Positions 14,862 through 60,367 of a DNA stretch of 64,000 bases are shown here, one piece after another; the stretch's first letter is position 1, and every line of letters begins with the position of its first letter. Source of the stretch: Lachnospiraceae bacterium P6B14 (GTDB lineage: Bacteria > Bacillota > Clostridia > Lachnospirales > Lachnospiraceae); NCBI GenBank assembly GCA_000687695.1, contig JHWZ01000003.1, forward strand, positions 1 to 64,000, in the 5' to 3' direction. Under the pieces are notes generated by a model. It saw only the letters and a program-made list of their open reading frames with translations. It ran no database searches and had not been told where the DNA came from. The position numbers and the translations under genes were made by a program.

Positions 14862-15048
14862 GATGTTTTGATTGTCCGCGATGGCACGCTTTCGCTTTTT
14901 TCTCGACCGTCACGTTGCACGCACGGAAAAGACCCGTGCTGCGCAACGACGCTCGAGACACATCCATCGCGGTGACAATTCAAAGCCATCCTCGAAGGGC
15001 TTTGCCCTGCTTTTGCAGCTAATCAAACCTGCCCTAGTGCAGCCTGCT
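14862..15048. repeat. Modular palindrome, type B (copy B1), with trailing outer arm
   Basis: TTTTGATTGTCCGCG at the left is answered by GTGACAATTCAAA at about 14973-14983. The middle arm pairs CGTCACGTTGC with GCGCAACGACG. The apex is GCACGG-AAAAGAC-CCGTGC at 14921-14939. A further outer right arm (AATCAAACCTGCCCTA) lies at 15021-15036. With 14986-15098 this fills most of the 411-base gap between VanW and sufC. Confidence 0.8.
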
Positions 15049-15098
15049 ACTTGAGAATACAATTCTAACAAAATCCATCCTCGAAGGGCTTTGCTCTG
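14986..15098 (+). repeat. 24-bp direct repeat pair
   Basis: Positions 14986-15009 and 15075-15098 are the same 24 bases apart from one change (core CCTCGAAGGGCTTTG). The first copy sits at the edge of the type B palindrome. Confidence 0.65.
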
Positions 15099-15124
15099 TT
15101 GTGCCTTGCGTGCTTCGGTTTAAC

Positions 15125-15153
15125 TTGACTTGACAGCTTTTATAAGGTATACT
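15125..15153 (+). promoter_or_regulatory. Promoter of the suf operon
   Basis: TTGACT, 17 bases, TATACT, about 90 bases before the sufC start. No recognisable IscR or Fur box is seen. Confidence 0.65.
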
Positions 15154-15243
15154 TGCGAGAGAAAAAAATGAAAAAATGGTAAAAGTGAGAAAATGGTAAA
15201 AAGTGAGAATATTGGAACTAATAATTATAGAAGGAGAAGAGTG

Positions 15244-16017
15244 ATGGCTACGATTTTGGAAATAAAGAATCTGTCTGTGGAGATCGAGGGTGGCGCAGGC
15301 GATGAGCCCATAAAGATCCTTGATGGCGTGAACATGACCATCGGTGCGGGTGAGACGCACGTTCTGATGGGACCGAACGGCGCAGGCAAATCCACTCTCG
15401 GCTATACGCTGATGGGTAATGAAAAATACACGATCACCGGTGGCGAGATCATATACAAGGGGCAGGACCTGCTTTCGTTAAATGTACATGAGCGCGCGAG
15501 AGCCGGGATATTTTTATCCTTCCAGAATCCTTTGGAGGTGCCCGGGGTGACCCTTTCAAACTTCATCCGCAGCGCAAAGGAGCAGAGATCTGATGAGCGC
15601 ATCAAGCTTTGGGATTTCCGCAAGGAGCTTAAAAGCAAGATGGAGCTTCTGTCGATGGATGAGTCTTATATGGATCGTGATCTGAATGTAGGATTCTCCG
15701 GCGGTGAGAAGAAAAAATCAGAGATACTGCAGCTTTTGATGCTCGCGCCTGAGTTTGCGATACTTGATGAGACGGATTCAGGACTTGATGTCGATGCGGT
15801 ACGTACTGTGTCGAAGGGCGTTGAGACTTTCCAGAAAGAGCAGGACGGTGCTCTTTTGATCATCACACATTCAACGAGGATACTTGAGTCGCTCAAGGTC
15901 GATCACACGCATGTGATGGTGAACGGTTCTATCGTGGCTGAGGGCGATGCGTCGCTCGTGGATGAGATCAATGAAAATGGATTTGAGCGATACTGCGCGA
16001 GTCCGTATGAAGGATAA
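15244..16017 (+). CDS. sufC: Fe-S assembly ATPase SufC
   Basis: 257 residues. ABC ATPase with Walker A GPNGAGKST, signature FSGGEKKKSE and Walker B FAILDETDSGLD, the variant DETDSGLD being typical of SufC. It binds SufB and SufD and drives scaffold rearrangement during Fe-S cluster building. ATG at 15244 follows AGGAGAAG; an upstream in-frame ATG at 15193 has no ribosome binding site. First gene of sufCBDSU. Its TAA stop lies within the stem of the first hairpin at 16012-16052. Confidence 0.95.
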   Translation: MATILEIKNLSVEIEGGAGDEPIKILDGVNMTIGAGETHVLMGPNGAGKSTLGYTLMGNEKYTITGGEIIYKGQDLLSLNVHERARAGIFLSFQNPLEVPGVTLSNFIRSAKEQRSDERIKLWDFRKELKSKMELLSMDESYMDRDLNVGFSGGEKKKSEILQLLMLAPEFAILDETDSGLDVDAVRTVSKGVETFQKEQDGALLIITHSTRILESLKVDHTHVMVNGSIVAEGDASLVDEINENGFERYCASPYEG

Positions 16018-16113
16018 GTGCATCGCATGCTTGCATGCGGATGCGCTTATCCAAATACGGAAGAGCCTAACGTACAACGAGGATTCCGGAAGAATCCGAG
16101 TTTGTACGTTAGG
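16012..16113 (+). repeat. Two long hairpins between sufC and sufB
   Basis: Hairpin 1 (16012-16052) has an ~18-bp stem starting GGATAAG and ending CTTATCC, with one bulge and a CTTG apex. Hairpin 2 (16066-16113) pairs CCTAACGTACAA with TTGTACGTTAGG and contains an inner GGATTC/GAATCC stem. Neither has a T-run, so both are likely mRNA segmentation or stability elements rather than terminators. Confidence 0.75.
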
Positions 16114-16144
16114 ACTCGCGCAGACTAAGCTTAGGAGATAAGTA

Positions 16145-17560
16145 ATGGAAGAAAAGACATATGTCGAGGATATAGACAGGAATCTCTACGATTTCAAAAA
16201 TGAAGAGACGGCCGAGAACTCGGTCCGTTTTGACGAGGGCCTGACGCCTGAGATCGTTGAGAAAATCTCTTCGGAAAAGGGTGACCCGGAGTGGATGAGA
16301 GATTTCCGCCTGGAGTCATTGCGTATTTATAATGAGATAGACGTCCCGGAATGGGGACCGCCGATAGACGGGCTGAACATGGATAACATCGCTACCTATG
16401 TGAAGCCGAAAACAAAGATGCACGCTGAGTGGGACGAGGTGCCTGATGAGATCAAGGACACGTTTGAACGTCTGGGCATCCCGAAGGCTGAGAGAGAGAG
16501 TCTCGCCGGAGTCGGTGCGCAGTATGATTCGGAGCTTGTCTATCACAATGTAAAGGAAGAAGTTTCGGCGCTCGGAGTCGTTTACACGGACCTCGAGAGT
16601 GCCATGCATACAGAGGAGCATGCCGAGAGGATCAGGTCGCACTTTATGAAGCTGGTGCCTCCGACAGATCACAAGTTCGCGGCGCTGCACGGTGCTGTAT
16701 GGTCGGGCGGATCGTATGTTTACGTGCCTCCGGGTGTCTCGGTGGAGATCCCGCTTCAGTCGTACTTCAGACTGAACGCGCCGGGTGCGGGCCAGTTCGA
16801 GCATACTCTGATCATCGTCGATGAGGGCGCGGACCTGCATTTCATCGAGGGATGCTCGGCACCGAAGTACAACATAGCAAACCTGCATGCCGGGTGTGTG
16901 GAGCTTTTTGTTGGTAAAAATGCCAAGCTCCGCTATTCGACCATAGAGAACTGGTCAAAAAACATGTACAATCTGAACACCAAGCGCGCCACTGTGGAGG
17001 AGGGCGGCGTGATGGAGTGGGTCTCGGGATCGTTTGGTTCGCACGTCTCCTATCTCTATCCGATGACCATCCTAAAGGGCGACAATTCACGCATGGAATT
17101 CACGGGTATCACCTTCGCCGGCAAAGGCCAGAACCTCGACACCGGAATGAAGGTCACACATATAGGTAAGTTTACGTCATCAGCTGTAAACACAAAGTCG
17201 ATATCGAAAGACGGCGGTATATCGACATTCCGCTCAGCGGTGGTTGTAGGTAAAAATGCCAAGAAGGCGAAGTCGACCGTTTCATGTGCTTCGCTGATGC
17301 TCGATCGTATATCGAGATCGGACACGATCCCGGCGATCGATGTGAGAACTGATGATGCGGATATAGGACACGAGGCAAGGATAGGAAAGATCAGCGATGA
17401 TGCCATCTTCTATCTGATGAGCAGAGGGATCAAGGAAGAGGAAGCCAGATCGATGATCGTAAGCGGATTTGCTGACAGTGTATCGAAGGAGCTGCCGCTC
17501 GAATATGCGCTCGAGATGAATAACCTAATCAGGCTCGAGATGAAGGGCAGTATAGGTTAG
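16145..17560 (+). CDS. sufB: Fe-S cluster scaffold protein SufB
   Basis: 471 residues, the usual length. The right-handed beta-helix core is visible (FIEGCSAPKYNIANLHAGCV, KLRYSTIENWSKNMYNLNTK, GVMEWVSGSFGS), as is the C-terminal helical part (AIFYLMSRGIKEEEARSMIV). With SufC and SufD it forms the SufBC2D scaffold that receives persulfide sulfur from SufS/SufU. Near-universal Cys in the SASLM region appears as VSCASLM. ATG at 16145 follows TTAGGAGATA. Located 127 bases after sufC, beyond two hairpins. Confidence 0.96.
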   Translation: MEEKTYVEDIDRNLYDFKNEETAENSVRFDEGLTPEIVEKISSEKGDPEWMRDFRLESLRIYNEIDVPEWGPPIDGLNMDNIATYVKPKTKMHAEWDEVPDEIKDTFERLGIPKAERESLAGVGAQYDSELVYHNVKEEVSALGVVYTDLESAMHTEEHAERIRSHFMKLVPPTDHKFAALHGAVWSGGSYVYVPPGVSVEIPLQSYFRLNAPGAGQFEHTLIIVDEGADLHFIEGCSAPKYNIANLHAGCVELFVGKNAKLRYSTIENWSKNMYNLNTKRATVEEGGVMEWVSGSFGSHVSYLYPMTILKGDNSRMEFTGITFAGKGQNLDTGMKVTHIGKFTSSAVNTKSISKDGGISTFRSAVVVGKNAKKAKSTVSCASLMLDRISRSDTIPAIDVRTDDADIGHEARIGKISDDAIFYLMSRGIKEEEARSMIVSGFADSVSKELPLEYALEMNNLIRLEMKGSIG

Positions 17561-17586
17561 GTTTTACGACATAGGAGTTTTATCAT

Positions 17587-18486
17587 ATGACTGAAAAAGC
17601 TATCAATGAGATGCCGGTTAAGACTTGGAACTGGCTGAAGATGAATGGGGCTATTATTGATGTGCCGGATGGGATATCACCTGCTGAGCCTATAGTTATT
17701 CATGCGGCTGAGGATAATGAGCAAAGCCGTTTGCCGTTTGAGTTTGAAAACGGGGCAAATACCGAAGGAACGGTTGATATATCGGTAGACGAGAATATAA
17801 ATCATACTGTTGTGATGGATTTCAAGAACGGGAGCGGTGAAAAAGGCGATGGTTTTGCGTCTGTCGGAGTGAAGATCTCACTCAAAAAGAAGGCAAAGCT
17901 GACGTTGGTTCAGGTTCACAGACTGGGTGATAAGTTTACCTTCACCGGAAGGATCGATGCTGACTTAGATGATAAGGCTGAGTTCCATCTGATCCACGCA
18001 TTTATCTGCGGAGGCAAGATTTATCAGGATGTTCACACGAACCTGAAGGGCAGAAAGAGTGCTCTGGTCATAGATACAGGCTATCTGACAAAAGGAAAAG
18101 AAGTTCTGGATCTGAACTATGAAGCATCGCATTTAGGCGAATCTTCTCTGTCTGACATCTCGGTGAGAGGTGCTCTTTGCGACGAAGCTGTAAAGAGATT
18201 CAGAGGTACCATCGATTTCAAGCTTGGCGCCATCGGTGCGAAGGGAAATGAGATAGAAGAGGTGCTGATGCTGGATGAGGGAGTCGTAAATCAGACCATC
18301 CCGATAATTCTTTGTGAGGAAGAGGATGTCGAGGGTAACCACGGCGCCTCCATCGGTCGTCTCGATGATGATATGCTCTATTATATGATGAGCCGCGGTA
18401 TGGACGAGGCTTCCATCCGCGAGATGATGAAGACGGCTTACTACGAGGCTGTCCTTCGAAAGTCGCCGGTAGAAATTAGTATTTGA
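17587..18486 (+). CDS. sufD: Fe-S assembly protein SufD
   Basis: 299 residues, shorter than many SufD proteins (about 350-430), chiefly in the N-terminal part. The SufBD core is present: HLIHAFICGGKIYQDVHTNL, FRGTIDFKLGAIGAKGNEIEE and the C-terminal HGASIGRLDDDMLYYMMSRG motif shared with SufB. It partners SufB and SufC. It lies 26 bases after sufB with AGGAG before ATG. Its stop codon overlaps a TTGACA that could be the -35 box of an RNA antisense to the small ORF downstream. Confidence 0.92.
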   Translation: MTEKAINEMPVKTWNWLKMNGAIIDVPDGISPAEPIVIHAAEDNEQSRLPFEFENGANTEGTVDISVDENINHTVVMDFKNGSGEKGDGFASVGVKISLKKKAKLTLVQVHRLGDKFTFTGRIDADLDDKAEFHLIHAFICGGKIYQDVHTNLKGRKSALVIDTGYLTKGKEVLDLNYEASHLGESSLSDISVRGALCDEAVKRFRGTIDFKLGAIGAKGNEIEEVLMLDEGVVNQTIPIILCEEEDVEGNHGASIGRLDDDMLYYMMSRGMDEASIREMMKTAYYEAVLRKSPVEISI

Positions 18487-18504
18487 CAAATATAATAACT
18501 GCGG

Positions 18505-18603
18505 TTATTTTTTTGACTTGCTACTCCGACCTATCGCATAGCCGAGGCTGATACATGAGATGCATAAGCTAAATATAGCTACGAAATCTGATAGTGTCAA
18601 CAT
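18505..18603 (-). CDS. Candidate 32-residue hydrophobic peptide, antisense inside the suf operon
   Basis: The minus-strand frame starts MLTLSDFVAIFSLC, continues with a single hydrophobic helix ending GYAIG, and closes with a basic tail SSKSKK. GGAGG lies eight bases before the ATG, an ideal ribosome binding site. The TAA stop enters the AATAAC/GTTATT hairpin. This is the shape of type I toxin or holin-like small membrane peptides (one helix, charged C-terminus). A plus-strand TTGACA-N17-TATTTT at 18483-18511 could drive an antisense RNA. No promoter for the peptide itself is obvious. Confidence 0.5.
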   Translation of the reverse strand: MLTLSDFVAIFSLCISCISLGYAIGRSSKSKK

Positions 18604-18690
18604 GTCAATGTCCTCCGTACGAAGATTCCTCAAAACGTATGTGTTGTCAATGAAAAAACGAACAAGTGCTCGAAAATATAGGAGATAAGA

Positions 18691-19968
18691 ATGATATCAG
18701 AGGTTCGCAAGGATTTTGCGTTTTTCAAGAATAACCCCGATGTAGCGTACTTAGATAACGCCGCGACGACTCAGCGTCCGGACTGTGTGCTGGAGGCGGT
18801 TTCGGAGTTTTATAAGACGGTAAACTCAAATCCTTTGAGAGGTCTGTATCAGATCAGTCTGGCTGCGACCGAGGCCTACGAGCAGGCCAGAGCCAGGGTT
18901 GTCGGATTTATCGGAGCAAAAAGGCCCGAAGAGATCATTTTTACGAAGAATGCATCGGAGTCTCTGAATCTGGTTGCGTTTAGTCTGTGCGAGGCGGTGC
19001 TGAAGGAGGGTGACGAGATCCTCGTCGGAATCATGGAACACCACTCAAACATGCTTCCGTGGAGAGCTGCAGCCGAGAGAAAGGGCGCGAAGGTCAGATA
19101 TCTGAAGCCCATGAAGAGAAAAACTGAGGGTGTGCAGGCCAGTGCGGATGACGCATATGCTGAGGATCCGACGGATGAAGGTCTCATCACACCGGAGCTG
19201 TTTGAAGCTTCCCTCACTGAAAAAACGAAGATAGTCGCGATCACTCATGTTTCAAACGTGTTCGGTCGCGAGAATGATATAAAGACATTTGCGAAGATCT
19301 GTCATGATCGCGGTATCGTGATAGTTGTCGACGGATCGCAGTCTGTGCCGCACACCCGTGTGGATGTGCAGGATATGGATGCTGATTTCCTCGCGTTTTC
19401 CGGACACAAGATGTGCGGACCGATGGGGATCGGAGTCCTGTACGGAAAGTATGAATGGCTTGAAAAGATCCCTCCGTTTTTAACAGGTGGAGAGATGATA
19501 GAGCTGGTAACATTAGACCGTATAACCTACGCTGAGATACCGCACAAATTCGAGGCCGGAACGGTCAACGCAGGTGGAGCGATAGGTCTTAAAGCGGCAA
19601 TCGATTATTATGAAAAGGTCGGTTTCGACAACATCATAGCACGTGAAAATGAGCTTACTGAGTACGCATATAAAAAGCTTACGGAGATCGAAGGAATCCG
19701 TATCATCGGAAGTGCAGATCCCACGGAGCATCACGGCATCCTCACCTTCACGCTGCAGGATGTGCATCCGCACGATATCGCGTACATCCTTGACGAGCAG
19801 GCAAACGTAGCGATCCGCGCCGGTCACCACTGTGCGCAGCCGCTGCTCAAATACTTGGGCACACCTTCAACAGCCCGCGCCTCCCTTGCTTTCTATAACA
19901 CGGAAGCAGAGGTTGATCGGTTAGCTGATTGTTTAAAAAATATGAGAAGCCAGCTGGGCTTTTGCTAG
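18691..19968 (+). CDS. sufS: Cysteine desulfurase SufS
   Basis: 425 residues. Type II (SufS/CsdA) fold: YLDNAATTQRPDCVLEAV opening, FTKNASESLNLVAF, HHSNMLPW, PLP lysine Lys240 in SGHKMCGPMGIGVLYGK and catalytic Cys381 in RAGHHCAQPLLKYLG. It converts L-cysteine to alanine and passes persulfide to SufU. An extra segment of about 27 residues (near 150-175, rich in Asp, Ala and Glu) interrupts the region before TPELFE and accounts for the longer than usual length. AGGAGATAAG precedes ATG. It follows a 204-base gap holding the antisense small ORF. Confidence 0.95.
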   Translation: MISEVRKDFAFFKNNPDVAYLDNAATTQRPDCVLEAVSEFYKTVNSNPLRGLYQISLAATEAYEQARARVVGFIGAKRPEEIIFTKNASESLNLVAFSLCEAVLKEGDEILVGIMEHHSNMLPWRAAAERKGAKVRYLKPMKRKTEGVQASADDAYAEDPTDEGLITPELFEASLTEKTKIVAITHVSNVFGRENDIKTFAKICHDRGIVIVVDGSQSVPHTRVDVQDMDADFLAFSGHKMCGPMGIGVLYGKYEWLEKIPPFLTGGEMIELVTLDRITYAEIPHKFEAGTVNAGGAIGLKAAIDYYEKVGFDNIIARENELTEYAYKKLTEIEGIRIIGSADPTEHHGILTFTLQDVHPHDIAYILDEQANVAIRAGHHCAQPLLKYLGTPSTARASLAFYNTEAEVDRLADCLKNMRSQLGFC

Positions 19969-20001
19969 ATACAGGCAACTACAGGTAAGGCACGCATGCA
20001 C

Positions 20002-20076
20002 CACTACGTGCTTGAAAAAAGCGCAAGCGCGCCCTCACGGACAATCAAAACATCCGACCATGGCGGCCGTCCCCTT
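20002..20076. repeat. Half copy of the type B palindrome (B4), reverse orientation
   Basis: On the minus strand this reads TCGGATGTTTTGATTGTCCG, then GAGGGCGCGCTTGCGCTTTTTT, matching the left half of copy B1. The opposite half is missing. It lies between sufS and sufU. Confidence 0.65.
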
Positions 20077-20114
20077 CAGACTAAATTCGCCTACGTGGTC
20101 GAACGGAGGAATAG

Positions 20115-20669
20115 ATGGAAAACAGAAGCTTTTATAACGAGATACTGACCGAGCACAATCTGCGTCCGGCGAATAAACATGAAATAGAAGGAGCCACCGT
20201 AACCCTCGAGGGCATCAATCCCTCCTGCGGTGATGACATCATCCTAAGCCTCAAAGTCGAGGATGGAGTGATAGTTGACGGTGGTTTCACAGGTGACGGA
20301 TGCGCGATATCACAGGCATCTGCGGATATGATGCTCGACCTGATCATAGGCAAGACCGAAGAGGAGGCGAGACGCCTCGGGGATATTTTTATGAGGATGA
20401 TAAGGGGCGAGGTCGATGACAGTGAGCTCGATGAGCTCGAGGAAAGTCAGGCGCTCCGAGATATCTCGCATATGCCGGCAAGAGTCAAATGTGCGGTGCT
20501 CGGGTGGCACACAATGGACGAGATGTTGAAGGTCTCCGGCGTCGCAGCCCGGACATCCGTGTCCGGGCAGGACGTGCTCACCGGAGCCCATGACGACGTC
20601 CTGTCTAAGGTCTCCGGCGTCCTGTCTAAGAATAGTGGAATTGACAGCGTTACAACTGAAGATATGTAA
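20115..20669 (+). CDS. sufU: SufU-type sulfur acceptor with C-terminal extension
   Basis: 184 residues; SufU proteins are about 145-150. The core carries zinc ligands in NPSCGDDI, FTGDGCAISQASADM and ARVKCAVLGW. SufU takes persulfide from SufS Cys and hands it to SufB. After TMDEMLKV the protein continues for about 40 residues of low complexity encoded by a perfect CCCGGACA/TGTCCGGG hairpin and a repeated GTCTCCGGCGTC segment, so the tail looks like a repeat insertion read through in frame. Start ATG 20115 follows ACGGAGGA. Last gene before the operon terminator. Confidence 0.93.
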   Translation: MENRSFYNEILTEHNLRPANKHEIEGATVTLEGINPSCGDDIILSLKVEDGVIVDGGFTGDGCAISQASADMMLDLIIGKTEEEARRLGDIFMRMIRGEVDDSELDELEESQALRDISHMPARVKCAVLGWHTMDEMLKVSGVAARTSVSGQDVLTGAHDDVLSKVSGVLSKNSGIDSVTTEDM

Positions 20670-20676
20670 AAACGAA

Positions 20677-20712
20677 GCGGGACGTTTGGTGGTGAGCGTC
20701 CCGCCTTTTTTT
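20677..20712 (+). terminator. Terminator of the suf operon
   Basis: GCGGGACG pairs with CGTCCCGC and is followed by CTTTTTTT. Confidence 0.9.
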
Positions 20713-20726
20713 GAATATCCTGCGTG

Positions 20727-21783
20727 TTATTTTTCGAAACAATCTTTTATCTGAGCTGCGCGCTCCTCGCGTAGTCCTACCGATGTGGCTATATCTGTCC
20801 ATTTTTCTATGGCGTTCTCAATCCTTTCAATATCATTCCTCATGTCCGAAGCGGAGATCCCGATGTTTTTGCCGGATGCGATCAAATCGTTATCATCTAT
20901 GCCTGCCATTTTTCCGTTTACAGTCATCTGATGACGCGAGGTCCAGGCTCCTGCCGGGTTGTATGAGAAGGTGATATCGTAAGCGGGTGCGAGAGACCAT
21001 GTTCCGTCTCGTTGCATTAAAAATGATATGTTTTTTACGTGGTCATCGTAGTTTTTTGCTTTGTGATTGAATACCATCCTGCGATACAGCTGCCGTATGT
21101 CATGATAATCACACCCTATTCTCCGAATGATATCAGCGATTTCTTCGTAGCTGTGTTCACCTGCTATATTATAGTCATAGTGCGCCATGCCTGCCAGCGA
21201 AAGCATGTGCAGTTTGCCGCCGTCAGCTGTTCGGTCAAATCTTTTGGTCAAAAAATGCTCGCCACTTTGAGACAGAATCTTGCACTCGCTCATATCTATA
21301 CCTGCCAGGATCGCCATTTGGTAGTATGCATATTCCGTGACGGTATGTTGGTGATCGTCGACATCTTCTTTGTCACGGTTATTTTTGATGCGATCAAACT
21401 TGATAAGCCAGTGTTCGTAATCCTTGCCGGCATCTATCTGTCCGGATCGAACTTCACCGGTTTTTTTGTTGATGGCTATAACGGCTTTGGCGCGTGCTCC
21501 TCCCGCTGATGTTCCTACGGAAATCAAATGTTCAAAAGAGCTTGAGTGTATACTTGTACGTAAACCCTCTCTTTGATTAAGAATATCTGAAGCAAGTTTA
21601 GAGAGTTCGTCGACTTTTAGTGCTTCGTCTGCAGTCGGATCTATACCGATTTCCGGGAAAAACTCAAGTGCACCCATCCCTCTGGTGCCGGTATAACAAA
21701 GTCTTTCTACTGCGTTCAGGGAACCGGGTGTGCGTCCATTTTTGCTTAACCAGGCATCTATCAATGTGTTTCCGAGTTGTCAT
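20727..21783 (-). pseudogene. hipA-like kinase gene, N-terminal deletion with frameshift
   Basis: The main frame (to 21764) contains most of a HipA kinase: RLCYTGTRGMGALEFFPEIG, the Gly/Ser loop SVGTSAGGARAKAV, catalytic NYDDHVKNISF and APAYDITFS. What is missing is the first ~90-100 residues. The natural start is probably the ATG overlapping the hipB stop as ATGA (21783), which reads MTTRKH and then leaves frame where the kinase frame resumes with GNTLIDAWL. An internal out-of-frame deletion near CGGAAACACA explains this. Only a TTG without ribosome binding site could start the kinase frame. Toxicity is probably lost, but a truncated product cannot be excluded. Confidence 0.65.
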
Positions 21784-22127
21784 TTTTCATCCCCCCATTT
21801 GAATCGTCCCTCCGGCTTTTTGCGATAGATTGGTGATGTGGCCCGCACGCGGTTTCGCCCGAGTTTATGAAGCTCTGCCGGGTGATCCATAACCTTGGGG
21901 ACCAATATATCCATATTTTGCTGCAAGCCCAAAGCGCGCAGGACCCTAATCAGATTTACCATCTGGACAGAGCGTCCCGCCTCGATATTTGTGATAGTAT
22001 GCACTGATAATCCTGTTTTTTGGGCAAGCTCTGTTTGTGTTAATGGAATCCGAATGCGATAGTCCGCCAATCGTTTACCGAGCTCGCTAAGAACGGCCGT
22101 GTCTGATTCAAAACTTCCGATCGTCAT
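21780..22127 (-). CDS. HipB-like XRE regulator (antitoxin)
   Basis: 115 residues. HTH domain at about 15-75: LGKRLADYRIRIPLTQTELA, QKTGLSVHTITNIEAGRSVQ, followed by ILVPKV and a basic C-terminal tail ending FKWGDEK. This is the HipB layout, normally paired with a HipA kinase, and here it directly precedes the hipA remnant with an ATGA junction. Its promoter at 22154-22202 carries a perfect palindrome, so autoregulation is likely. With the kinase damaged, it may persist as a repressor or as an orphan antitoxin. Confidence 0.85.
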   Translation of the reverse strand: MTIGSFESDTAVLSELGKRLADYRIRIPLTQTELAQKTGLSVHTITNIEAGRSVQMVNLIRVLRALGLQQNMDILVPKVMDHPAELHKLGRNRVRATSPIYRKKPEGRFKWGDEK

Positions 22128-22153
22128 ATATCCTCACTCCCATCTTGAAATTA

Positions 22154-22202
22154 ACATTCATATTTATGAATGTAGTATATCAAATATGAAGCTAACTGTC
22201 AA
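22154..22202 (-). promoter_or_regulatory. hipB promoter with palindromic operator
   Basis: On the minus strand TTGACA (22197-22202), 17 bases, TATACT (22174-22179). Directly downstream, at 22154-22173, lies ACATTCATA-TT-TATGAATGT (plus-strand reading), a perfect 9-bp-arm palindrome abutting the -10 box. Additional ATATGAA half sites occur at about 22184 and 22203. Confidence 0.8.
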
Positions 22203-22245
22203 GTATATGAAGATTAATATCGTCAAAAATGAACCGCTGTTTCGG

Positions 22246-22274
22246 TTGACTTTTTCCGTGAAATGGGTTATCAT
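22246..22274 (+). promoter_or_regulatory. Rubrerythrin promoter
   Basis: TTGACT, 17 bases, TATCAT. The leader contains inverted repeats TCATTAGT (22271-22278) and ACTAATGA (22301-22308) that could form a stem in the mRNA or bind a regulator. No clear PerR box. Confidence 0.65.
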
Positions 22275-22324
22275 TAGTCTAATACTTTTGTACGTAAAAC
22301 ACTAATGAAAGTGAGGTATTGATT

Positions 22325-22867: not shown

Positions 22868-22886
22868 GAATAGGCAACAAATACGT

Positions 22887-22920: not shown

Positions 22921-22930
22921 GAAAAAATGC

Positions 22931-35870: not shown

Positions 35871-36030
35871 GGTCACGTAGGCGGTCGGTTATGATTTATC
35901 TGCTCGGGACTCCGTTTCCACCATGGAAAAACGCAGCACTGCCGGGAACTCGAAGAGTTCCCTTCGCAGATGACGTTTTCCCGAGGCCCCTCGTATGATA
36001 AATCAAACCTGCCCTATAACGGCCTGTCAT
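35871..36030. repeat. Modular palindrome, type A (copy A1)
   Basis: The left arm (CACGTAGGCGGTCGGTT, TGATTTATCTGCTCGGGACT, CCATGGAAAAACG) and right arm (ACGTTTTCCCGAGG, GATAAATCAAACCTGCCCTA, GGCCTGTC) are nearly identical to copy A2 at 58305-58466. The centre is unrelated to A2 and forms GGGAACTC-GAA-GAGTTCCC at 35944-35962. Confidence 0.85.
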
Positions 36031-41773: not shown

Positions 41774-41960
41774 CAGACAGGACCTGCGTAGGGCAGTTTG
41801 GAATTGTCCGGTGAGGGATGTGTATCGTACGTCGTTGCGCAGCTGTGTGTATAAAACTCGAAGAGTTTTGTTTACACAGCGCACAACGTGACGTACGATA
41901 AAAAAGCGAAAGCGTGCCCGAACGGACAAACCAAATCTGCCCGTACAGGGTCCGTCCTGA
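41774..41960. repeat. Modular palindrome, type B (copy B2), reverse orientation
   Basis: Outer arms pair GTAGGGCAGTTTGGAATTGTCC with the matching GGACAAACCAAATCTGCCC. The middle arm has CGTCGTTGCGCAG and its partner CGCACAACGTGACG, plus the AAAAAAGCGAAAGCGTGCCC block shared with B1 and B3. The apex (41842-41880) is an 18-bp imperfect stem with a GAA loop. It lies between GH16 and the ribosomal promoter and fills most of that 600-base gap. Confidence 0.82.
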
Positions 41961-42022: not shown

Positions 42023-42361
42023 TGCTGTGACATGATAGCGAAGAAGCGGAGGTTGCCGCCCAGGCAGTTAGATACCTACTGTGTGGTATCAGGAACACCG
42101 TTACAAAGGCGGGTTTTTCGTGGAGCGAATGTCAAGGGTTGTTTCAAAATCAGATCAGCAATCAGGTTCGGAACAACCGGCAATCATGACGACAAGTCAC
42201 TGTACAGATGCATATTTTCTGCCACCGAGCAGATAAACGTGTGGATCCCGAGGAGGCTCGGGCATAATTTTTGAAAAGGTTATGGACACACACGGATGAG
42301 TGTACAGTCACCGCTTGTCGTACTACATTATCTATAGTACGAAAAGGAGGCGACTATTTTT
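42023..42361 (+). promoter_or_regulatory. Long structured S10 operon leader
   Basis: A leader of about 340 bases without a convincing gene. It includes GCGGAGGTTGCCGCC near 42046 and a long-range pairing of ACGACAAG...ACTGTACA (about 42191-42210) with TGTACAGTCACCGCTTGTCGT near 42311-42332, allowing for a 3-base bulge. This is where autogenous control of the S10 operon is expected; the family cannot be named from reading alone. Confidence 0.5.
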
Positions 42362-53107: not shown

Positions 53108-53119
53108 TAGGAGGTATGT

Positions 53120-53761
53120 ATGAAGATAGTTATGTTAGGTGCACCCGGTGCAGGAAAAGGTACTCAGGCTAAGATGATCTCTGAAAAGTATGATATACCA
53201 CACATCTCTACAGGAGATATTTTCAGAGCAAATATCAAAGAGGGAACAGAACTCGGAAAGAAAGCTAAGGCTTATATGGACGAGGGTAAGCTTGTTCCTG
53301 ATGAGCTGACATGTGATCTCGTTGTAGATCGTATCGCTCAGGATGATGCTAAAAACGGATATGTACTTGATGGTTTTCCGCGTACTATTCCGCAGGCTGA
53401 GGCTCTTACCAATGCACTCAATGCTCGTGGTGAGAAGCTTGACTATGCTATCGACGTTGAGGTTCCTGATGAGAACATCGTTAACCGTATGAGCGGTCGC
53501 CGTGCTTGTGTAAGCTGTGGCGGAACCTATCATATCAAGTATAACCCGACAAAGGTAGAGGGCGTCTGCGACGCATGTGGCGGACAGCTTACACTGCGTG
53601 ATGATGACAAGCCGGAGGTGGTTGCTGACCGTCTCAAGGTATATCACGAGCAGACACAGCCTCTTATTGATTATTACAATAAAGAGGGAATACTGAAAGA
53701 GGTAGACGGAACCGTAGATTTGAAAGATGTCTTTGATGCCATCGTAGGCATTTTGGGCTAA
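53120..53761 (+). CDS. adk: Adenylate kinase, zinc-lid type
   Basis: 213 residues. P-loop [45 protein letters not shown], and a LID domain with four cysteines (CVSCGGTYH and CDACGGQL) that bind structural zinc. It balances ATP, ADP and AMP. It follows secY as usual, but the methionine aminopeptidase gene that commonly sits between adk and infA is absent. Confidence 0.97.
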
Positions 53762-53775
53762 GAAAGAAGGTCATT

Positions 53776-53994
53776 ATGTCAAAGTCAGATATGATCGAGA
53801 TCGAAGGAACCGTTATCGAGAAGCTTCCGAATGCCATGTTCCAGGTTGAGCTTGAGAACGGGCACAAGGTACTCGCCCACATCAGTGGAAAGCTTCGTAT
53901 GAATTACATCCGTATATTACCGGGTGACAAAGTAACGTTGGAGCTTTCGCCATACGACCTTACAAAGGGGCGTATAGTATGGCGCGATAAATAA
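53776..53994 (+). CDS. infA: Translation initiation factor IF-1
   Basis: 72 residues. [40 protein letters not shown] and [20 protein letters not shown] are IF-1 motifs; OB fold that occupies the A site during initiation. AGAAGGTC precedes ATG. Followed by a chain of hairpins before rpmJ. Confidence 0.97.
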
Positions 53995-53996
53995 AC

Positions 53997-54143
53997 TCCA
54001 TGATTTCAACACTTTGAAAAGACCAAAGTGTGAAATCACCGAGCAGAGCTCGGGAGTTTATAACGCTTTCTGCAAGCAGAAAGCTCACATGAACTCCATG
54101 ATATAAGCCTTCTCCTTGAGGAGAAGGTGACCACGAAGTGGTC
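53997..54143 (+). repeat. Chain of four hairpins between infA and rpmJ
   Basis: TGATTTCA/TGAAATCA encloses ACTTTG-AAAAGAC-CAAAGT (54001-54038); then CTTTCTG-CAAG-CAGAAAG near 54066-54083; CCTTCTCC-TTGA-GGAGAAGG at 54108-54127; GACCAC-GAA-GTGGTC at 54129-54143. AACTCC and GGAGTT flank the first. The loops AAAAGAC and GAA match those of the dispersed palindromes. Confidence 0.7.
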
Positions 54144-54172
54144 AGATGAGGTGTATAGAAAGGAGGTCACTC

Positions 54173-54286
54173 ATGAAGGTCAGATCGTCAGTAAAGCCGA
54201 TTTGCGAAAAATGCAAGGTGATCAAAAGAAAGGGTCGTATCAGAATTATCTGTGAGAACCCGAAGCACAAGCAGCGTCAAGGCTAA
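54173..54286 (+). CDS. rpmJ: 50S ribosomal protein L36, zinc type
   Basis: 37 residues. [20 protein letters not shown] and [17 protein letters not shown] give the CxxC...CxxxxH zinc site. AAAGGAGG precedes ATG 54173. Too short for many gene finders but unambiguous. Confidence 0.97.
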
Positions 54287-54470
54287 GTAAACTCTTTGAG
54301 TTTTACAAAAGGATGACTGAGTCATTCTTTCAAGCCTATCATATACATGATGCTTTTTGTGTTATGATATCTGCGGATATCATGATACCGCGGGAGTGCG
54401 AACTCCAGGATATTTTTCCCAGTCCCGACTGATTTGGGGCGACGCGGTTTAAGGCAACTTATTAACATTT
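54287..54470 (+). other. Structured spacer before rpsM
   Basis: No gene. Several short inverted repeats occur in a row: GTAAACTC/GAGTTTTAC directly after the L36 stop, GGATGA/TCATTC, ATGATATC-TGCG-GATATCAT, and GGAGT-GCGA-ACTCC. A promoter could not be placed with confidence. The region may separate spc and alpha operon mRNAs. Confidence 0.5.
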
Positions 54471-54496
54471 TTTCAGAAGGAAAGAGAGGAAAACAC

Positions 54497-54865
54497 ATGG
54501 CTCGTATTAGCGGTGTAGATTTACCGAGAGAGAAACGCGTAGAGATAGGTCTTACCTATATTTATGGTATTGGTCTTTCGAGCTCACAGAGAATCCTTAA
54601 GGAGGCCGGCGTAGATCCGGACATCCGTTGCAAGGATCTCTCAGATGATGATGTGGACAAGATCCGTAAAGTCATCGAGGACACTCAGGTAGTTGAGGGT
54701 GATCTCCGCAGAGAGGTTGCACTGAACATCAAACGTCTTCAGGAAATCGGATGCTATCGCGGTATCCGTCACAGAAAGGGACTTCCGGTCCGTGGACAGA
54801 AGACAAAGACCAATGCTCGTACTCGCAAGGGACCAAAACGTACTGTTGCGAATAAGAAAAAATAA
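54497..54865 (+). CDS. rpsM: 30S ribosomal protein S13
   Basis: 122 residues. [40 protein letters not shown], and [23 protein letters not shown] 54497 follows GAGAGGAAAAC; the GTG 63 bases upstream lacks support. Contacts S19 and P-site tRNA. Confidence 0.97.
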
Positions 54866-54879
54866 TGGAGGTAAGATAA

Positions 54880-55275
54880 ATGGCTAAGCAGGTTGCGAAG
54901 AAATCAACTAAAAAGCGTGCCAAGAAGAATATAGACCGTGGACAGGCGCATATTCAGGCATCGTTTAACAATACGATCGTAACGCTGACCGACATGGAAG
55001 GTAACGCGATCTCATGGGCAAGTGCCGGCGGACTTGGTTTCAGAGGAAGCAAAAAGTCCACACCTTATGCGGCGCAGATGGCAGCAGAGACAGCTGCAAA
55101 GGCAGCTCTCCCTCATGGTTTAAAGACTGTTGAGGTTATGGTAAAGGGACCGGGATCAGGTCGTGAGGCAGCGATCCGCGCGATCCAGGCTTGCGGAATT
55201 GAGGTAACAAGTATCCGCGACGTAACACCGGTACCGCACAACGGTTGTAGACCACCGAAGAGAAGGAGGGTATAA
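54880..55275 (+). CDS. rpsK: 30S ribosomal protein S11
   Basis: 131 residues. [40 protein letters not shown] and [16 protein letters not shown]. Part of the platform near the Shine-Dalgarno helix. TGGAGG precedes ATG; two bases separate it from rpsD. Confidence 0.97.
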
Positions 55276-55277
55276 TA

Positions 55278-55871
55278 ATGGCTAGAGATATGACTCCGGT
55301 TCTTAAGAGATGTCGTTCACTGGATCTCGATCCTGTATATCTCGGAATCGATAAGAAATCAAAGAGAAATGCCCGTCAGGGAAAGAAGCTTTCCGAGTAC
55401 GGACAGCAGCTTCGTGAGAAGCAGAAGGCAAAGTTCATCTACGGTGTTCTTGAGAAGCCGTTCCGTAACTACTTTGCTCGTGCACAGAAGGCTAAGTGGG
55501 GTACGACAGGTGATAACCTGATGATCCTCCTTGAGCTTCGTCTTGACAACGTTCTTTTCCGTCTCGGTTTCGCGAGAACAAGAAAAGAGGCAAGACAGAT
55601 CGTTGATCACAAGCACGTTTTGGTAAATGGAAAATGTGTAAATATTCCGTCATATTCGCTCAAGAAGGGTGATGTGATCGAGATTAAGGAAAAACATAAG
55701 GGTGGTCCCCGTTATAAGGAGATCCTCGAGGTAACCAAGGGAAGACTCGTTCCTGCATGGCTTGAGTCAAATCCTGAAGCACTTTCCGGAGAGGTTAAGG
55801 AGTATCCGACCAGAACGGAAATTGATGTACCGGTTAATGACGTGTTGATTGTCGAGTTGTACTCGAAATAA
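55278..55871 (+). CDS. rpsD: 30S ribosomal protein S4
   Basis: 197 residues. An N-terminal domain with only one Cys (so the zinc-free form) and the S4 RNA-binding domain RLDNVLFRLGFARTRKEARQ, IVDHKHVLVNGKCVNIPSYS. A primary 16S binder; S4 autoregulates some Firmicutes operons. Placement between rpsK and rpoA is normal for Clostridia. AGGAGGGTATAAT precedes ATG. Confidence 0.97.
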   Translation: MARDMTPVLKRCRSLDLDPVYLGIDKKSKRNARQGKKLSEYGQQLREKQKAKFIYGVLEKPFRNYFARAQKAKWGTTGDNLMILLELRLDNVLFRLGFARTRKEARQIVDHKHVLVNGKCVNIPSYSLKKGDVIEIKEKHKGGPRYKEILEVTKGRLVPAWLESNPEALSGEVKEYPTRTEIDVPVNDVLIVELYSK

Positions 55872-55898
55872 TCCTTTGTCTGATAAGGGGGTACCTAC

Positions 55899-56858
55899 GT
55901 GTTTGAATTTAATAAACCAAAAATTGACATTGTTGAGATTTCAGAGGATCACAAGTTTGGTCGTTTTGTAGTAGAGCCGTTAGAGCGCGGATACGGAACG
56001 ACATTGGGTAACTCACTTCGCAGGATCATGCTTTCATCTCTGCCGGGTGCTGCAGTATCGAGCATCAAGGTAGACGGCGTGGTACATGAGTTTTCATCAA
56101 TCCCGGGCGTAAAGGAAGATGTGACCGAGATCGTGATGAACATCAAAAACCTTGCGATCAAAAACAATGCTGAGGACCCGAGCGTACCTGTTACGATCTA
56201 TGTTGACGCACAGGGCGAGGGCGTGGTAACTGCAGCTGATATCAAAAAGAGCTCGGACATCGAGATCATCAACGAGGATCAGCTGATCGCCACACTTAAC
56301 GGCAGCGATGCCAAGCTTTATATCGAGATGACAGTAACAAGCGGACGCGGTTATGTCAGCTCGGATAAGAACAAGAAAAATGAGCAGCTCGACGTGGATG
56401 CGATCGCCATCGACTCCATCTACACACCGATCGAGCGTGTGAACATCAAGGTAGAGGATACCCGTGTCGGACATATCACTGACTTCGATAAGCTGACACT
56501 CGATGTATTCACCAACGGTACACTCGCACCGGACGAGGCAGTGAGCCTTGCGGCGAAGGTAATGAGTGAGCATCTGAAGTCCTTCATCGATCTTTCAGAG
56601 AAGGCAAAGAATGCTGAGGTTATCGTTGAGCCGAACGCGGACGATACAAAGAAGGTTATGGATATGAGCATCGATGAGCTCGAGCTTTCTGTTCGTTCGT
56701 ATAACTGCCTGATGAGAGCCAACATCAAGACTGTAGAAGAGCTTACAAACAAGACTACTGACGAGATGATGAAGGTTCGTAACCTCGGACGCAAGTCCCT
56801 GGATGAGGTAGTTGCAAAGTTGAAGGAACTCGGTCTGTCATTATCCGATGGAGATTGA
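55899..56858 (+). CDS. rpoA: RNA polymerase alpha subunit
   Basis: 319 residues, GTG start after AAGGGGGTACC. N-terminal dimerisation domain ([40 protein letters not shown]) and C-terminal domain for UP elements and activators ([40 protein letters not shown]). Full length. Confidence 0.98.
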
Positions 56859-56924
56859 CGCAGACTGACGCGCCGGATGCGATCGGCGCTGTAAGTAGAT
56901 GTAAATTGATTGGAGGAAAAAGTT

Positions 56925-57461
56925 ATGGCTGGATATAGAAAGTTAGGCAGAACTTCGAGCCAGAGAAAGGCGCTTCTTCGTGGCCAGGTTACTAACCTGA
57001 TCTATCACGGACGTATCGTGACTACAGAGGCAAAGGCTAAGGAGATCCGCAAGATCGCTGAGAACCTCATCGCTATGGCAGTTCGTGAGAAGGACAACTT
57101 CGAGACAGTTACTGTTGAGCAGAAGGTTCCGAAGAAGGATGTTGACGGAAAGCGCGTAAAGGAAGAGAAGGACGGAAAGAAGGTTACGGTTTATGATACC
57201 GTTTCCAAGGAGATCAAGAAGGATGCTCCTTCACGTCTTCATGCTCGTCGTCAGATGAACAAGGTTCTTTACAAGATCACTGAGGTTCCGACTGAGGCAG
57301 CAGGCCGCAAAAAGAGAACCAAGGAGATCGACCTTACTAACAAGCTTTTTGATGAGCTCGCTCCTAAGTATGCAAACCGCAACGGCGGTTACACCCGTAT
57401 CGTAAAGGTTGGTCCGCGTAAGGGTGATGCAGCTATGGAAGTTGTTATCGAGTTAGTATAA
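56925..57461 (+). CDS. rplQ: 50S ribosomal protein L17
   Basis: 178 residues; many bacterial L17 are about 115-130. AGYRKLGRTSSQRKALLRGQ and the C-terminal NRNGGYTRIVKVGPRKGDAA are standard. The extra ~50 residues form a Lys-rich insertion in the middle (VPKKDVDGKRVKEEKDGKK...). Similar insertions occur in Lachnospiraceae L17. TTGGAGG sets ATG 56925. Confidence 0.95.
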   Translation: MAGYRKLGRTSSQRKALLRGQVTNLIYHGRIVTTEAKAKEIRKIAENLIAMAVREKDNFETVTVEQKVPKKDVDGKRVKEEKDGKKVTVYDTVSKEIKKDAPSRLHARRQMNKVLYKITEVPTEAAGRKKRTKEIDLTNKLFDELAPKYANRNGGYTRIVKVGPRKGDAAMEVVIELV

Positions 57462-57489
57462 TTATTACCTGTTTTGAGGTGGTCAGCCT

Positions 57490-58317
57490 ATGATAGAGGC
57501 TAAGGATATTAAATACGAATATATCCGTCGCGATGATCACGACGAGGTAGTAGCGGTGGAGACAGCGTTGAACGCTGTCTCTTTTCGCATTGAAGCAGGT
57601 GAGTTTATCGGCATCATCGGAGCGAACGGATCAGGCAAGTCTACACTTGCAAAGCATCTGAATGCTCTCCTTCTCCCGGAGGAGGGGGCTGTTTTTGTTG
57701 ACGATATTGACACATCGGACGGCAATATGGTTTTTGAGATCAGAAGCCGCGTCGGGATGATTTTTCAGAATCCGGACAATCAGATTGTACATGATATCAT
57801 CGAGGATGATGTGGCGTTCGGACCCGAGAACATGGGAGTGCCCCGAAAAGAGCTTCGTAAGCGCGTAGATGATGCTCTGGCTATGGTAGGCATGAGTGAT
57901 TGGGCTACGGCCTCTCCGATGCGTTTATCGGGCGGACAGAAGGCTCGTGTGGCGATCGCGGGTGTGCTTGCCATGAAGCCGAAGTGTATGGTGTTCGATG
58001 AGTCGACTGCGATGCTGGATCCTATAGGTCGCAGAGATGTGCTCGCCGAGGTGAAACGTCTGAACCGTGAGGAGGGGATCACGGTCATATGGATCACGCA
58101 TTTTCCCGAGGAGGTTGTTTCATGCGACGCCGTGTTTGTTATGGATGCCGGAGAGCTTGTGCTGACGGGGACGCCTGCGGAGGTTTTTTCCGAGGCGGAT
58201 TGGCTTACGGAGTTGGGACTTGATCTGCCGGTCAGCGTCGGTATATCACGGGAGCTCGGGTTACCTGTGGCGCTTACTTCTGATGAATTAGTTACAGCCA
58301 TACAGACGGCCACGTAG
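57490..58317 (+). CDS. ecfA1: ECF transporter ATPase EcfA1
   Basis: 275 residues. Walker A GANGSGKSTLAKHLNALLLP, Q-loop FQNPDNQIVHDIIEDDVAFG, signature RLSGGQKARVAIAGVLAMKP and Walker B MVFDESTAMLDPIGRRDV. With EcfA2 and EcfT it forms the shared energy module for vitamin and metal S components encoded elsewhere. GAGGTGGTC precedes ATG. The last residues QTAT and the TAG stop lie in the left end of a type A palindrome. Confidence 0.95.
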   Translation: MIEAKDIKYEYIRRDDHDEVVAVETALNAVSFRIEAGEFIGIIGANGSGKSTLAKHLNALLLPEEGAVFVDDIDTSDGNMVFEIRSRVGMIFQNPDNQIVHDIIEDDVAFGPENMGVPRKELRKRVDDALAMVGMSDWATASPMRLSGGQKARVAIAGVLAMKPKCMVFDESTAMLDPIGRRDVLAEVKRLNREEGITVIWITHFPEEVVSCDAVFVMDAGELVLTGTPAEVFSEADWLTELGLDLPVSVGISRELGLPVALTSDELVTAIQTAT

Positions 58318-58466
58318 GCGGTCGGTTCTGATTTATCTGCTCGGGACTCCGTTTCCACCATGGAAAAACGTAGCGGTGCATGGCGCCAGAATACGGCGCC
58401 TACGCACCGACGTTTTCCCGAGGTCCCTCGCACGATAAATCAAACCTGCCCTACTGTGGCCTGTCT
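58305..58466. repeat. Modular palindrome, type A (copy A2)
   Basis: The left end GACGGCCACGTAGGCGG overlaps the ecfA1 stop; the right end GTGGCCTGTC lies two bases before the ecfA2 ribosome binding site. Arms match copy A1 almost base for base. The apex is GGCGCC-AGAATAC-GGCGCC at 58382-58400, unrelated to the A1 apex. It fills nearly the whole ecfA1-ecfA2 gap. Confidence 0.87.
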
Positions 58467-58478
58467 GCTGGAGGTTTT

Positions 58479-59330
58479 ATGGAAATATTATTGAATCAGG
58501 TATCGTATATCTATGACGAGGGGACAGCGTATGAGAAGCATGCGCTGGCCGGTATTGACGTGCGCATCGGACAAGGCGAGTTCATCGGGGTTATAGGTAA
58601 GACAGGATCAGGAAAGTCCACGTTGGTTAAGATGTTTAATGCGTTATTAAAGCCGAGCTATGGCGGTGTATATGTGGACGGTGAGGATATCTGGGACAGG
58701 GATTATGAGAGAGCGGCTCTACGCGGTCGTATAGGGATGGTTTTTCAGTATCCCGAGCAGCAGCTTTTTGAGAGCACTGTTGTGAAGGATGTGCAGTTTG
58801 GTCCGACCAATCAGGGATTGGATGAGTTACAGGTGGAGTTGAGGTCTTTTGAGGCGCTGAAGCAGGTTGGGATCGGTGAGGATCTGCTGGATGTGTCACC
58901 GTTGGAACTTTCGGGCGGTCAAAAAAGACGTGTGGCGATAGCGGGTGTGCTCGCGATGCAGCCTGAGGTGCTCATACTTGACGAGCCTACAGCGGGACTT
59001 GATAAAGAGGGACAGAACGCTATTTTTGAGCTTTTGTTAAGACTTAACAGAGAAAAGAATACCACCATTATTCTTATCACGCATCGAATGGAGGATGTAT
59101 GTGAGTACACGAATCGTGTTCTGGTTATGAATGATGGAAGGATTGTTATAGATGATGCTCCCAAAGAGGTGTTTTACGGCACTGATGAGCTCAGTAAATA
59201 CGGGCTTAGGGCGCCTGAGGTTACATACATCATGGAGAGGCTAAGAGCTGGTGGTATCGACATACCCAAGGGAGTTATTAAAAAAGAGGATGCTGTCGCG
59301 GTGATAAAAAGCGTGATGGCGGCCAGATAG
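58479..59330 (+). CDS. ecfA2: ECF transporter ATPase EcfA2
   Basis: 283 residues. Walker A GKTGSGKSTLVKMFNALLKP, Q-loop FQYPEQQLFESTVVKDVQFG, LSGGQKRRVAIAGVLAMQPE and LILDEPTAGLDKEGQ. ATG 58479 follows CTGGAGG, directly after the type A palindrome; frames starting inside the palindrome are rejected. In most relatives ecfA1 and ecfA2 nearly touch, so the 162-bp insertion is notable. Confidence 0.95.
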   Translation: MEILLNQVSYIYDEGTAYEKHALAGIDVRIGQGEFIGVIGKTGSGKSTLVKMFNALLKPSYGGVYVDGEDIWDRDYERAALRGRIGMVFQYPEQQLFESTVVKDVQFGPTNQGLDELQVELRSFEALKQVGIGEDLLDVSPLELSGGQKRRVAIAGVLAMQPEVLILDEPTAGLDKEGQNAIFELLLRLNREKNTTIILITHRMEDVCEYTNRVLVMNDGRIVIDDAPKEVFYGTDELSKYGLRAPEVTYIMERLRAGGIDIPKGVIKKEDAVAVIKSVMAAR

Positions 59331-59382
59331 ATTTTTATGTTAATGTAGTTATTATAGTATCGAAGCAGGTGGAGGATAATTT

Positions 59383-60195
59383 ATGATCCGTAACATGACG
59401 ATAGGGATGTACTATCCTGTGGATTCACCGATCCACAGACTGGATCCGCGAGTGAAGCTGATCGCGGTTCTGGTGTTTTTGGTGTCCTTATTTTTGTTCT
59501 CGGATTTTATGGGATATGCTGTTGTAAGTGTGGTATTATTAACAGTTATTTTCCTTTCGAAAGTGCCTTTATCTCATATTCTTAAGGGTATGAGGGCTAT
59601 TGTATTTCTGCTTATTTTTACTTCGTTTTTTAACATATTTTTTACCAAGGGTGACATACTCTGGGAGTGGCAGTTTATTCATATTACTTACCAGGGATTG
59701 AGACAGGCATTGTTTATGGCGATGCGTCTTATATACCTTGTTATTGGATCGTCAATGCTGACTTATACAACGACTCCCGGAAAGCTGACGGATGCCATAG
59801 AGTCGCTGCTTGGTTGGTTAAAGATTTTCAGAGTGCCTGTTCATGATTTCGCGATGATGATGAGTTTGGCGCTCAGGTTTATACCGCTTCTTTTGGCGGA
59901 GGCAAATCGTATCCTGGATGCACAGAGTGCGAGAGGTGCTGATGTCGATAGCGGAGGTATCGTGAAGAAGTTGAGGACCATGGTGTCGATCATCGTGCCG
60001 CTTTTGGTGTCGGCGACGAGGCGGGCGTATGAGCTCGGACTAGCTATGGAAGCGAGATGCTATGGCGGGACGAAAAAGCCCACGAAACTGAAGCCACTTC
60101 GGTTCAGGTTCAGCGACTTTTTGATGTTGCCACTGATGGTTGCTTATGTCATCGCAATATTATATGTCGATGAATTAGTCAAAATAATGCCGTAG
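59383..60195 (+). CDS. ecfT: ECF transporter transmembrane protein EcfT
   Basis: 270 residues, five to seven hydrophobic helices. DSPIHRLDPRVKLIAVLVFL opening and the coupling-helix motifs with Ala-Arg-Gly (AQSARGADVDSGG, AMEARCYGG) that dock on the two ATPases. GGTGGAGGATAATTT precedes ATG. The stop TAG lies at the start of a type B palindrome. Confidence 0.95.
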   Translation: MIRNMTIGMYYPVDSPIHRLDPRVKLIAVLVFLVSLFLFSDFMGYAVVSVVLLTVIFLSKVPLSHILKGMRAIVFLLIFTSFFNIFFTKGDILWEWQFIHITYQGLRQALFMAMRLIYLVIGSSMLTYTTTPGKLTDAIESLLGWLKIFRVPVHDFAMMMSLALRFIPLLLAEANRILDAQSARGADVDSGGIVKKLRTMVSIIVPLLVSATRRAYELGLAMEARCYGGTKKPTKLKPLRFRFSDFLMLPLMVAYVIAILYVDELVKIMP

Positions 60196-60367
60196 GCAGG
60201 GCACGGCCCCTATACGGGTAGCTTTTGTTTGTCAGCGAGGGCACGCTTGCGCTTTTTTCTCTGACGTCACGTTGCACGACACCATAATACGGTGTCTGCG
60301 CAACGACGTCAGAGAGACATCCCTCGCTTCGACAAATCAAAACTACCCTACACGGGGCCTGTTACCT
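60195..60367. repeat. Modular palindrome, type B (copy B3)
   Basis: Outer arms CGGCCCC...GGGTAGCTTTTG and AAAACTACCCTACACGGGGCC pair; the middle arm CTCTGACGTCACGTTGC pairs with GCGCAACGACGTCAGAGAG. The apex is GACACC-ATAATAC-GGTGTC at 60278-60296. It fills the gap between ecfT and truA. Confidence 0.87.

Follow-up and report, generated by a model that had tools for sequence, protein, structure and literature searches.

The DNA analysed here comprises the first 64,000 nucleotides of contig JHWZ01000003.1 of Lachnospiraceae bacterium P6B14 (assembly GCA_000687695.1), referred to as the window, and carries several copies of a palindromic element. The original prediction, made from the sequence letters, had named six copies of a modular palindrome, and the family is real: all six places hold related sequence, and five of the six fold far better than shuffled versions. 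These five are full copies, while the one at 20002-20076 is only half an element; an intact element occupies its orthologous site in the relative G025 (locus L065). In the same locus the counterpart of the copy at 14862 is a longer nested array with doubled arms. The copy at 35871 adjoins the dnaE stop codon, directly on its 3' side, and has the weakest core model score of the five full window copies (Table 1).

Within the window's own draft genome (G000, 2.69 Mb), DNA queries with the copies at 35871 and 14862 gave 14 and 37 matches, respectively, and the query with the 41774 copy gave 41 match pieces. A core motif search over the fetched G000 stretches found 44 copies which, together with the 35871 copy, five diverged copies and three further places from the model search, bring the total to at least 53. 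This bears out the proposal of a dispersed family resembling repetitive extragenic palindromic (REP) sequences and miniature inverted-repeat transposable elements (MITEs). Repeat blocks within the genome put the element size at about 155-210 bp. In a mechanical call of open reading frames of at least 80 aa, 31 of the 44 G000 cores overlapped none and 13 overlapped one. The elements are thus short, multicopy, dispersed and gene-less, as in the definition of MITEs, and the palindromic arms found throughout amount to terminal inverted repeats, a further MITE feature.

Types A and B, which had been described as two distinct middle arms, are variants of one family with one architecture when read on one strand. 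From the 5' end, a variable outer stem (P1) is followed by a lower stem with an internal loop, the stem P2, a mid-stem and the apical stem P3; the 3' half runs from the P3 loop back through P2, a short linker and the mini-hairpin P4 to the lower stem and P1. The internal loop reads GGGATGTG in most type B and GGGACCT in most type A copies, and the mid-stem is formed by CGTCGTTGCGCA with CAACGTGACG or by CGTCGGTGCGTA with CACCGCTACG, intermediates also occurring. The apical stems do differ from copy to copy, as had been noted, but they fall into two length classes, and the loop of the short class is a 7 nt GTNNNNT in 73/73 cases. Near-identity of the two type A copies over about 60 bases per arm held on one side (54/56) but not on the other (51/60), with 28/45 identical positions in the centre. 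Longer type A copies with extra hairpins beside P4 were also observed, at C9:57060 (L009/L097) and C7:17950 (L013), which are 86% identical over 155 bp.

Table 1. Element copies and their parts in the window. The strand of each copy is that of its GNRA loop; z-scores refer to folding against 200 dinucleotide shuffles.
Feature	Position	Strand	Description	Core model match	Folding z-score
Copy	14862..15048	-	Type B, short P3	14877-14978	-5.0
Duplicate arm beside the 14862 copy	15071-15098		Partial
Half copy	20002..20076	+	Core 3' half with CACCACTACG and P4 mini-hairpin GC-GCAA-GC		-1.4 (19/200 shuffles as low)
Copy	35871..36030	-	Type A, divergent centre	35901-36002 (32.7 bits)	-3.2 (1/200 shuffles as low)
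Copy	41774..41960	+	Type B, long P3, extra hairpin AAAACTCGAAGAGTTTT	41803-41924	-10.6
P4 mini-hairpin of the 41774 copy	41906..41913	+	GC-GAAA-GC (GNRA loop)
Copy	58305..58466	-	Type A, P4 = GT-GGAA-AC	58338-58439	-9.2
Copy	60195..60367	-	Type B	60234-60335	-11.1

Stem sequences vary between copies while pairing is kept within them. The two sides of P2 paired at 0.951 within a copy versus 0.605 between copies, a value that none of 10,000 permutations reached. An alignment of 31 of the 44 G000 copies, leaving out 12 with a long P3 and the P4-expanded copy C4:150559, contained 29 distinct sequences, in which 95.6% of cells were paired compared to 72.3% after shuffling and 23-57% in slid controls. 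Covariation amounted to 0.621 versus 0.181 in the shuffled set, with double-sided changes at 24/32 pairs. A second alignment of 43 distinct copies from 14 genera, which includes some copies of the window's genus and, being fitted to the covariance model, is biased towards it, gave 89.5% paired cells versus 61.4%, a covariation of 0.677 versus 0.174, and double-sided change at 34/34 pairs.

Among the 98 distinct cores of the window's genus, 94 have a P4 in which a GNRA loop caps a Watson-Crick stem of two pairs (GC/GC, AC/GT or GT/AC); three of the exceptions hold a longer hairpin at this position and one has a mismatch. By our own arithmetic the search pattern, which did not require the stem to pair, matches about 3% of random stretches by chance. 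Reading the copies of other genera found the same loop with a Watson-Crick stem in 35/35 copies from 15 genomes of 13 genera, a set that omits three duplicates (L173, L175 and L177) as well as eight copies from the window's genus. Among these loops are GAGA, GUAA and GGGA, none of which was present in the training set of the model. The rule followed here, with any N, a purine in third and A in fourth position, is what RNA loops show. G-A mismatches occupy 24 of 924 cells in G000, 17 of them at two neighbouring pairs on the GNRA strand, and across genera G-A outnumbers T-C by 76 to 15, while A-C and G-T are not lopsided (17 versus 13). This bias points to the GNRA strand as the folded one. The family therefore carries marks like those of structured RNAs, namely covarying stems and loop conservation on one strand. 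A promoter and terminator scan around one copy found one promoter-like site in the core, no more than in shuffles, and no terminator-like site on the core.

The exact core pattern was found in 37 stretches from four of 84,980 species genomes, assemblies named as uncultured Lachnospiraceae, Clostridiales and Eubacterium. The covariance model, built from the G000 copies, matched 87 of the 397 genomes of the family, which is taken to be Lachnospiraceae from its named members; these 87 count G000 and represent 79 of 334 genera, and ten of them had at least 10 scored matches. In a class-wide sample 11/391 genomes matched, 10 of them within Lachnospiraceae, and the eleventh had one weak match in an assembly with 6% contamination. 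Copy number varies strongly between congeners: in genus g207, G244 and G610 had at least 10 scored matches, G651 and G772 had two, and G806 had none. A single pattern match in viral sequences (L076) was weak by the model (16.3 bits, E 0.11) and a second viral pattern gave none; one other-genus element each, rather than a G000 element, was used as query against plasmids and phages, without a match. The claim that the system is undescribed is supported by Rfam 15, where neither the window nor nine loci of other genera had an element over which any family reached its gathering score. Relaxed Rfam searches of two window stretches returned only weak matches far below the cut-off, and we recognised no description of the family in the accessible parts of the open-licence literature searched. 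In a bacterial family that is dominant in the gut, a fold conserved across about one quarter of the genera sampled and without an Rfam match represents a large piece of uncharted biology.

Orthologous sites bear signs of mobility of the family. The spacer between dnaE and pfkA, which holds the 35871 copy, measures 230 bp in G000 versus 83 bp in G025 and 70 bp in G018, both without the palindrome. Reading the spacer in six further relatives likewise found no such palindrome, one more relative (L082) not being resolved, and the site is occupied in G000 only. The proposed check, an occupied and an empty orthologous site, came out in favour of mobility. The site C2:273258 is also empty in G018. 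At other window sites the element differs between relatives. The 58305 site carries a type B element in G018, no element in G004, and in G025 (L087, about 4830-5134) a larger palindrome with an unrelated centre within similar outer ends. The element at the 60195 site is of the same type B in G025, is of type A in G018 and is an A/B hybrid in G004, and at the 41774 site G018 (L078) has only an outer-arm hairpin with no core.

A table of orthologous comparisons comprised 53 rows, of which 16 lacked a core, 4 represented a second neighbouring element, 10 had arms that were not kept and 23 had kept arms. For arms to be scored as kept, each side had to reach an identity of at least 0.80; C4:150559 and C9:55175, with one side off register through a P4 insertion, were added. 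In the 23 kept-arm comparisons, at 19 sites, P3 identity was either at least 0.91 (18 comparisons) or at most 0.59 (5), with no value between. The five replaced centres lie at four sites, C17:25292, C4:150413, C4:150559 and C8:71982, the last counting twice. Whole hairpin modules have thus been replaced under kept arms. Moreover, the whole element stands in opposite orientation in 3/23 kept-arm comparisons (C17:25292, C3:128678 and C7:64628). When arms were not kept, the centre differed as well (P3 identity 0.41-0.73), and two of these ten elements were inverted. Three G018 loci with different arms share one identical P2-P3 module of 58 nt, and at two of these loci G000 holds other centres. 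Replacement of hairpins under locus-specific arms provides natural before-and-after pairs for studying compensated change in one step and the evolution of palindromes.

Centre replacement had been proposed in the original prediction, with centres that diverge no faster than arms as the outcome that would speak against it. The replacement was found, but that outcome was seen in 18 of the 23 comparisons, so that centres are exchanged abruptly at a minority of the sites and do not diverge fast in a steady manner.

Taken together, these observations are best explained, in our judgement probably correctly, by a family of mobile, MITE-like palindromes that conserve their fold and exchange modules from copy to copy. 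It rests on the common plan and its covariation, the wide distribution with copy-number variation among congeners, and the empty orthologous site, as well as on replaced modules and inverted elements. Under this explanation the element would be non-autonomous DNA moved in trans by a putative enzyme, and its fold may be kept since the fold itself, or its RNA, is recognised during mobility; the folded species could be RNA or single-stranded DNA. Dispersed copies might exchange modules through gene conversion at short homologies or through template switching during replication. If the conserved internal loops served as entry and exit points of such exchange, the two arms of a hairpin would change together, and the palindromic arms could also permit inversion of the whole element. 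The original prediction had given a single-stranded DNA intermediate as an example of a route; conversion from copy to copy explains the centre swaps as well as that intermediate would. A bolder reading, less likely than not, is a hairpin-exchange system with a putative enzyme, in which mobility or maintenance needs the RNA-like branched fold with its GNRA loop and whole cassettes are traded, possibly via folded RNA, in the manner of short interspersed nuclear elements (SINEs), or via single-stranded DNA.

Several observations weigh against this interpretation. The centre is unchanged in most kept-arm orthologs, and the ten comparisons in which arms and centre both differ also fit independent insertion at one site. 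Coordinated double changes are not generally in excess between close orthologs, where 4 of them stand against 21 single changes; all four doubles come from one comparison, and 13 of the singles lie in two rows that are apparently shifted by an indel. As the assemblies of the relatives are drafts, errors of assembly could account for some inversions. Of four copies with outer repeats, two have direct repeats at their ends (L170, 11 bp; L195, 10 bp), one in G132 and one in G395, with none clear at L194 and L174. No flanking repeat was visible at nine G000 copies whose ends were set by the motif CAGG(C/T)C to (C/T)GT. Finally, no transposase partner was found in a search that covered Y1_Tnp in the window's genus, and no autonomous parent was noticed in the fetched stretches, Y1_Tnp being the sole transposase searched for.

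The outer repeats just mentioned are longer inverted repeats that surround cores in three genomes of two other genera, with the sequence AGGCGATTGCGAAACT in G132 and variants of it in G395 and G080. A different end signature, the frame CAG-stem...stem-CGTC, was present in 15/35 copies of other genera (permuted mean 2.0, highest 5) and in 7/44 G000 copies (permuted mean 0.7, highest 3), counts that include related copies. Tagging at one end is a trait shared with the GTAG- and CGTC-tagged palindromic repeats, which measure 20-40 bp and whose CGTC class is said to have no dedicated transposase (PMC3733652). Here, unlike in those repeats, CGTC stands at the 3' end of the folded strand, and the main text on them does not contain the words Firmicutes, Clostridi, Eubacterium, Roseburia or Butyrivibrio (PMC3733652).

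The marks of structured RNA raise the alternative of a multicopy RNA with a host function, as RNA genes acting in trans or as cis elements in 3' untranslated regions (3' UTRs), with selection on the RNA and incidental dispersal. The GNRA loops with their free second position, the tandem G-A mismatches that favour one strand and the covariation at every pair of the cross-genus alignment all fit this idea, and in these respects the element resembles the families of Rfam 15, although it matches none of them. Its orientation relative to neighbouring genes is not fixed, however. With respect to the GNRA strand, the flanking genes of the 44 G000 copies are arranged (-,-) in 23, (+,+) in 9, (+,-) in 8 and (-,+) in 2 cases, with 2 one-sided; the corresponding numbers for the 35 copies of other genera are 15, 12, 3 and 3, and again 2 one-sided. 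This mixture speaks against a cis-acting messenger element. Copies are also inverted at orthologous sites, an empty site is tolerated, and copy number ranges from 0 to at least 10 within one genus, which leaves an RNA with a host function a rather unlikely explanation, though the strongest of the competing ones. Some of the same folding evidence would suit integron attC sites, which have a variable terminal part, as the present elements combine a conserved core with a variable tip. Sites of the attC type are recognised by structure as a folded single strand (PMC2727003). Tandem arrays of the element do occur in G147, where core starts follow one another at 163-165 bp (L191) or 137 bp (L190). 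This spacing is too close for gene cassettes, of which none are present, and the R-box pair RYYYAAC/GTTRRRY was found in 0/44 copies on either strand (control 0/44); we consider this origin very improbable.

An ordinary REP element or bacterial interspersed mosaic element (BIME), moved by a REP-associated tyrosine transposase (RAYT, Y1 HUH) that has since been lost from the hosts, would account for dispersed extragenic palindromes. Like REP, BIME and REPIN sequences and their RAYT (TnpA-REP) partners (PMC3116915, PMC2817692 and PMC8266576), the family includes some opposed pairs (three, in C15, C1 and C4) and lies mostly between co-directional or convergent genes, with few copies in divergent spacers. 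The RAYT or IS200-like partner that had been anticipated did not materialise, though: Y1_Tnp exceeded the cut-off in none of the seven genus genomes with type B DNA matches (two of them incomplete, at 61% and 84%), while ten of 39 genus genomes pass it and have no such match, these ten having been screened for elements by that DNA query alone. Because no Y1 transposase passed the cut-off in these seven carriers, the family is not a standard REP/RAYT system. Furthermore, its units are several times longer than 20-40 bp hairpins, adopt a branched three-helix fold with a GNRA mini-hairpin and exchange modules, and GTAG/CTAC lies near the stem in just 12/44 G000 copies. We therefore regard a lost RAYT system as improbable, and the family poses a search problem, namely what enzyme could move a structured palindrome in hosts where no Y1 transposase turns up. 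Slightly better placed, yet still doubtful, is the insertion of small hairpins into the loops of existing palindromes, building nested layers. The coreless outer-arm hairpin at the 41774 site in G018 is what it would predict, as are the hairpin AACTC...GAGTT that lies in P3 of 12/44 copies and replaces P4 in 3/98 cores, the doubled arms at 14862 in G025, and the cores within longer inverted repeats in G132, G395 and G080. Every one of these cases also fits the loss of a centre by deletion, or conversion of one copy by another, however; half-deleted remnants exist (L117, L118), and no empty hairpin is shown to be ancestral.

The mobile MITE-like family favoured here is akin to REPs and MITEs in kind, and stands apart through the REP/RAYT features that failed when tested, its fold and its module exchange. 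For the MITEs of the ERIC (enterobacterial repetitive intergenic consensus) and RU type, we know of no report of a GNRA core or of module exchange. Those multicopy intergenic repeats of 100-200 bp, likened to MITEs in PMC2759123, are similar to the present element, but their hosts are different.

One genomic position may recur among the insertions. The spacer preceding the S10-Clostridia leader (window 42033-42183) carries an element in G000 and also in G349, a member of another genus (L171, 523-919), and both G006 and G004 have copies close to the region that corresponds to it (L079, 11160; L094, 4769-5041). This spacer is a possible recurrent insertion site.

Other repeats were observed besides this family. 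A perfect 28-bp inverted repeat at window positions 6099-6220 (arms 6161-6188 and 6193-6220) overlaps the 3' end of a tRNA-Trp gene, and another inverted repeat (475-735) has 49-nt arms that are 90% complementary and 163 nt apart. A second structured repeat, about 137 bp long and likewise multicopy (L098, 12650-12786), has matches in G018, G025, G004 and G005. A different palindrome is present in G000 at L097, 10498-10583, where G025 lacks about 86 bp and the flanking matches overlap briefly.

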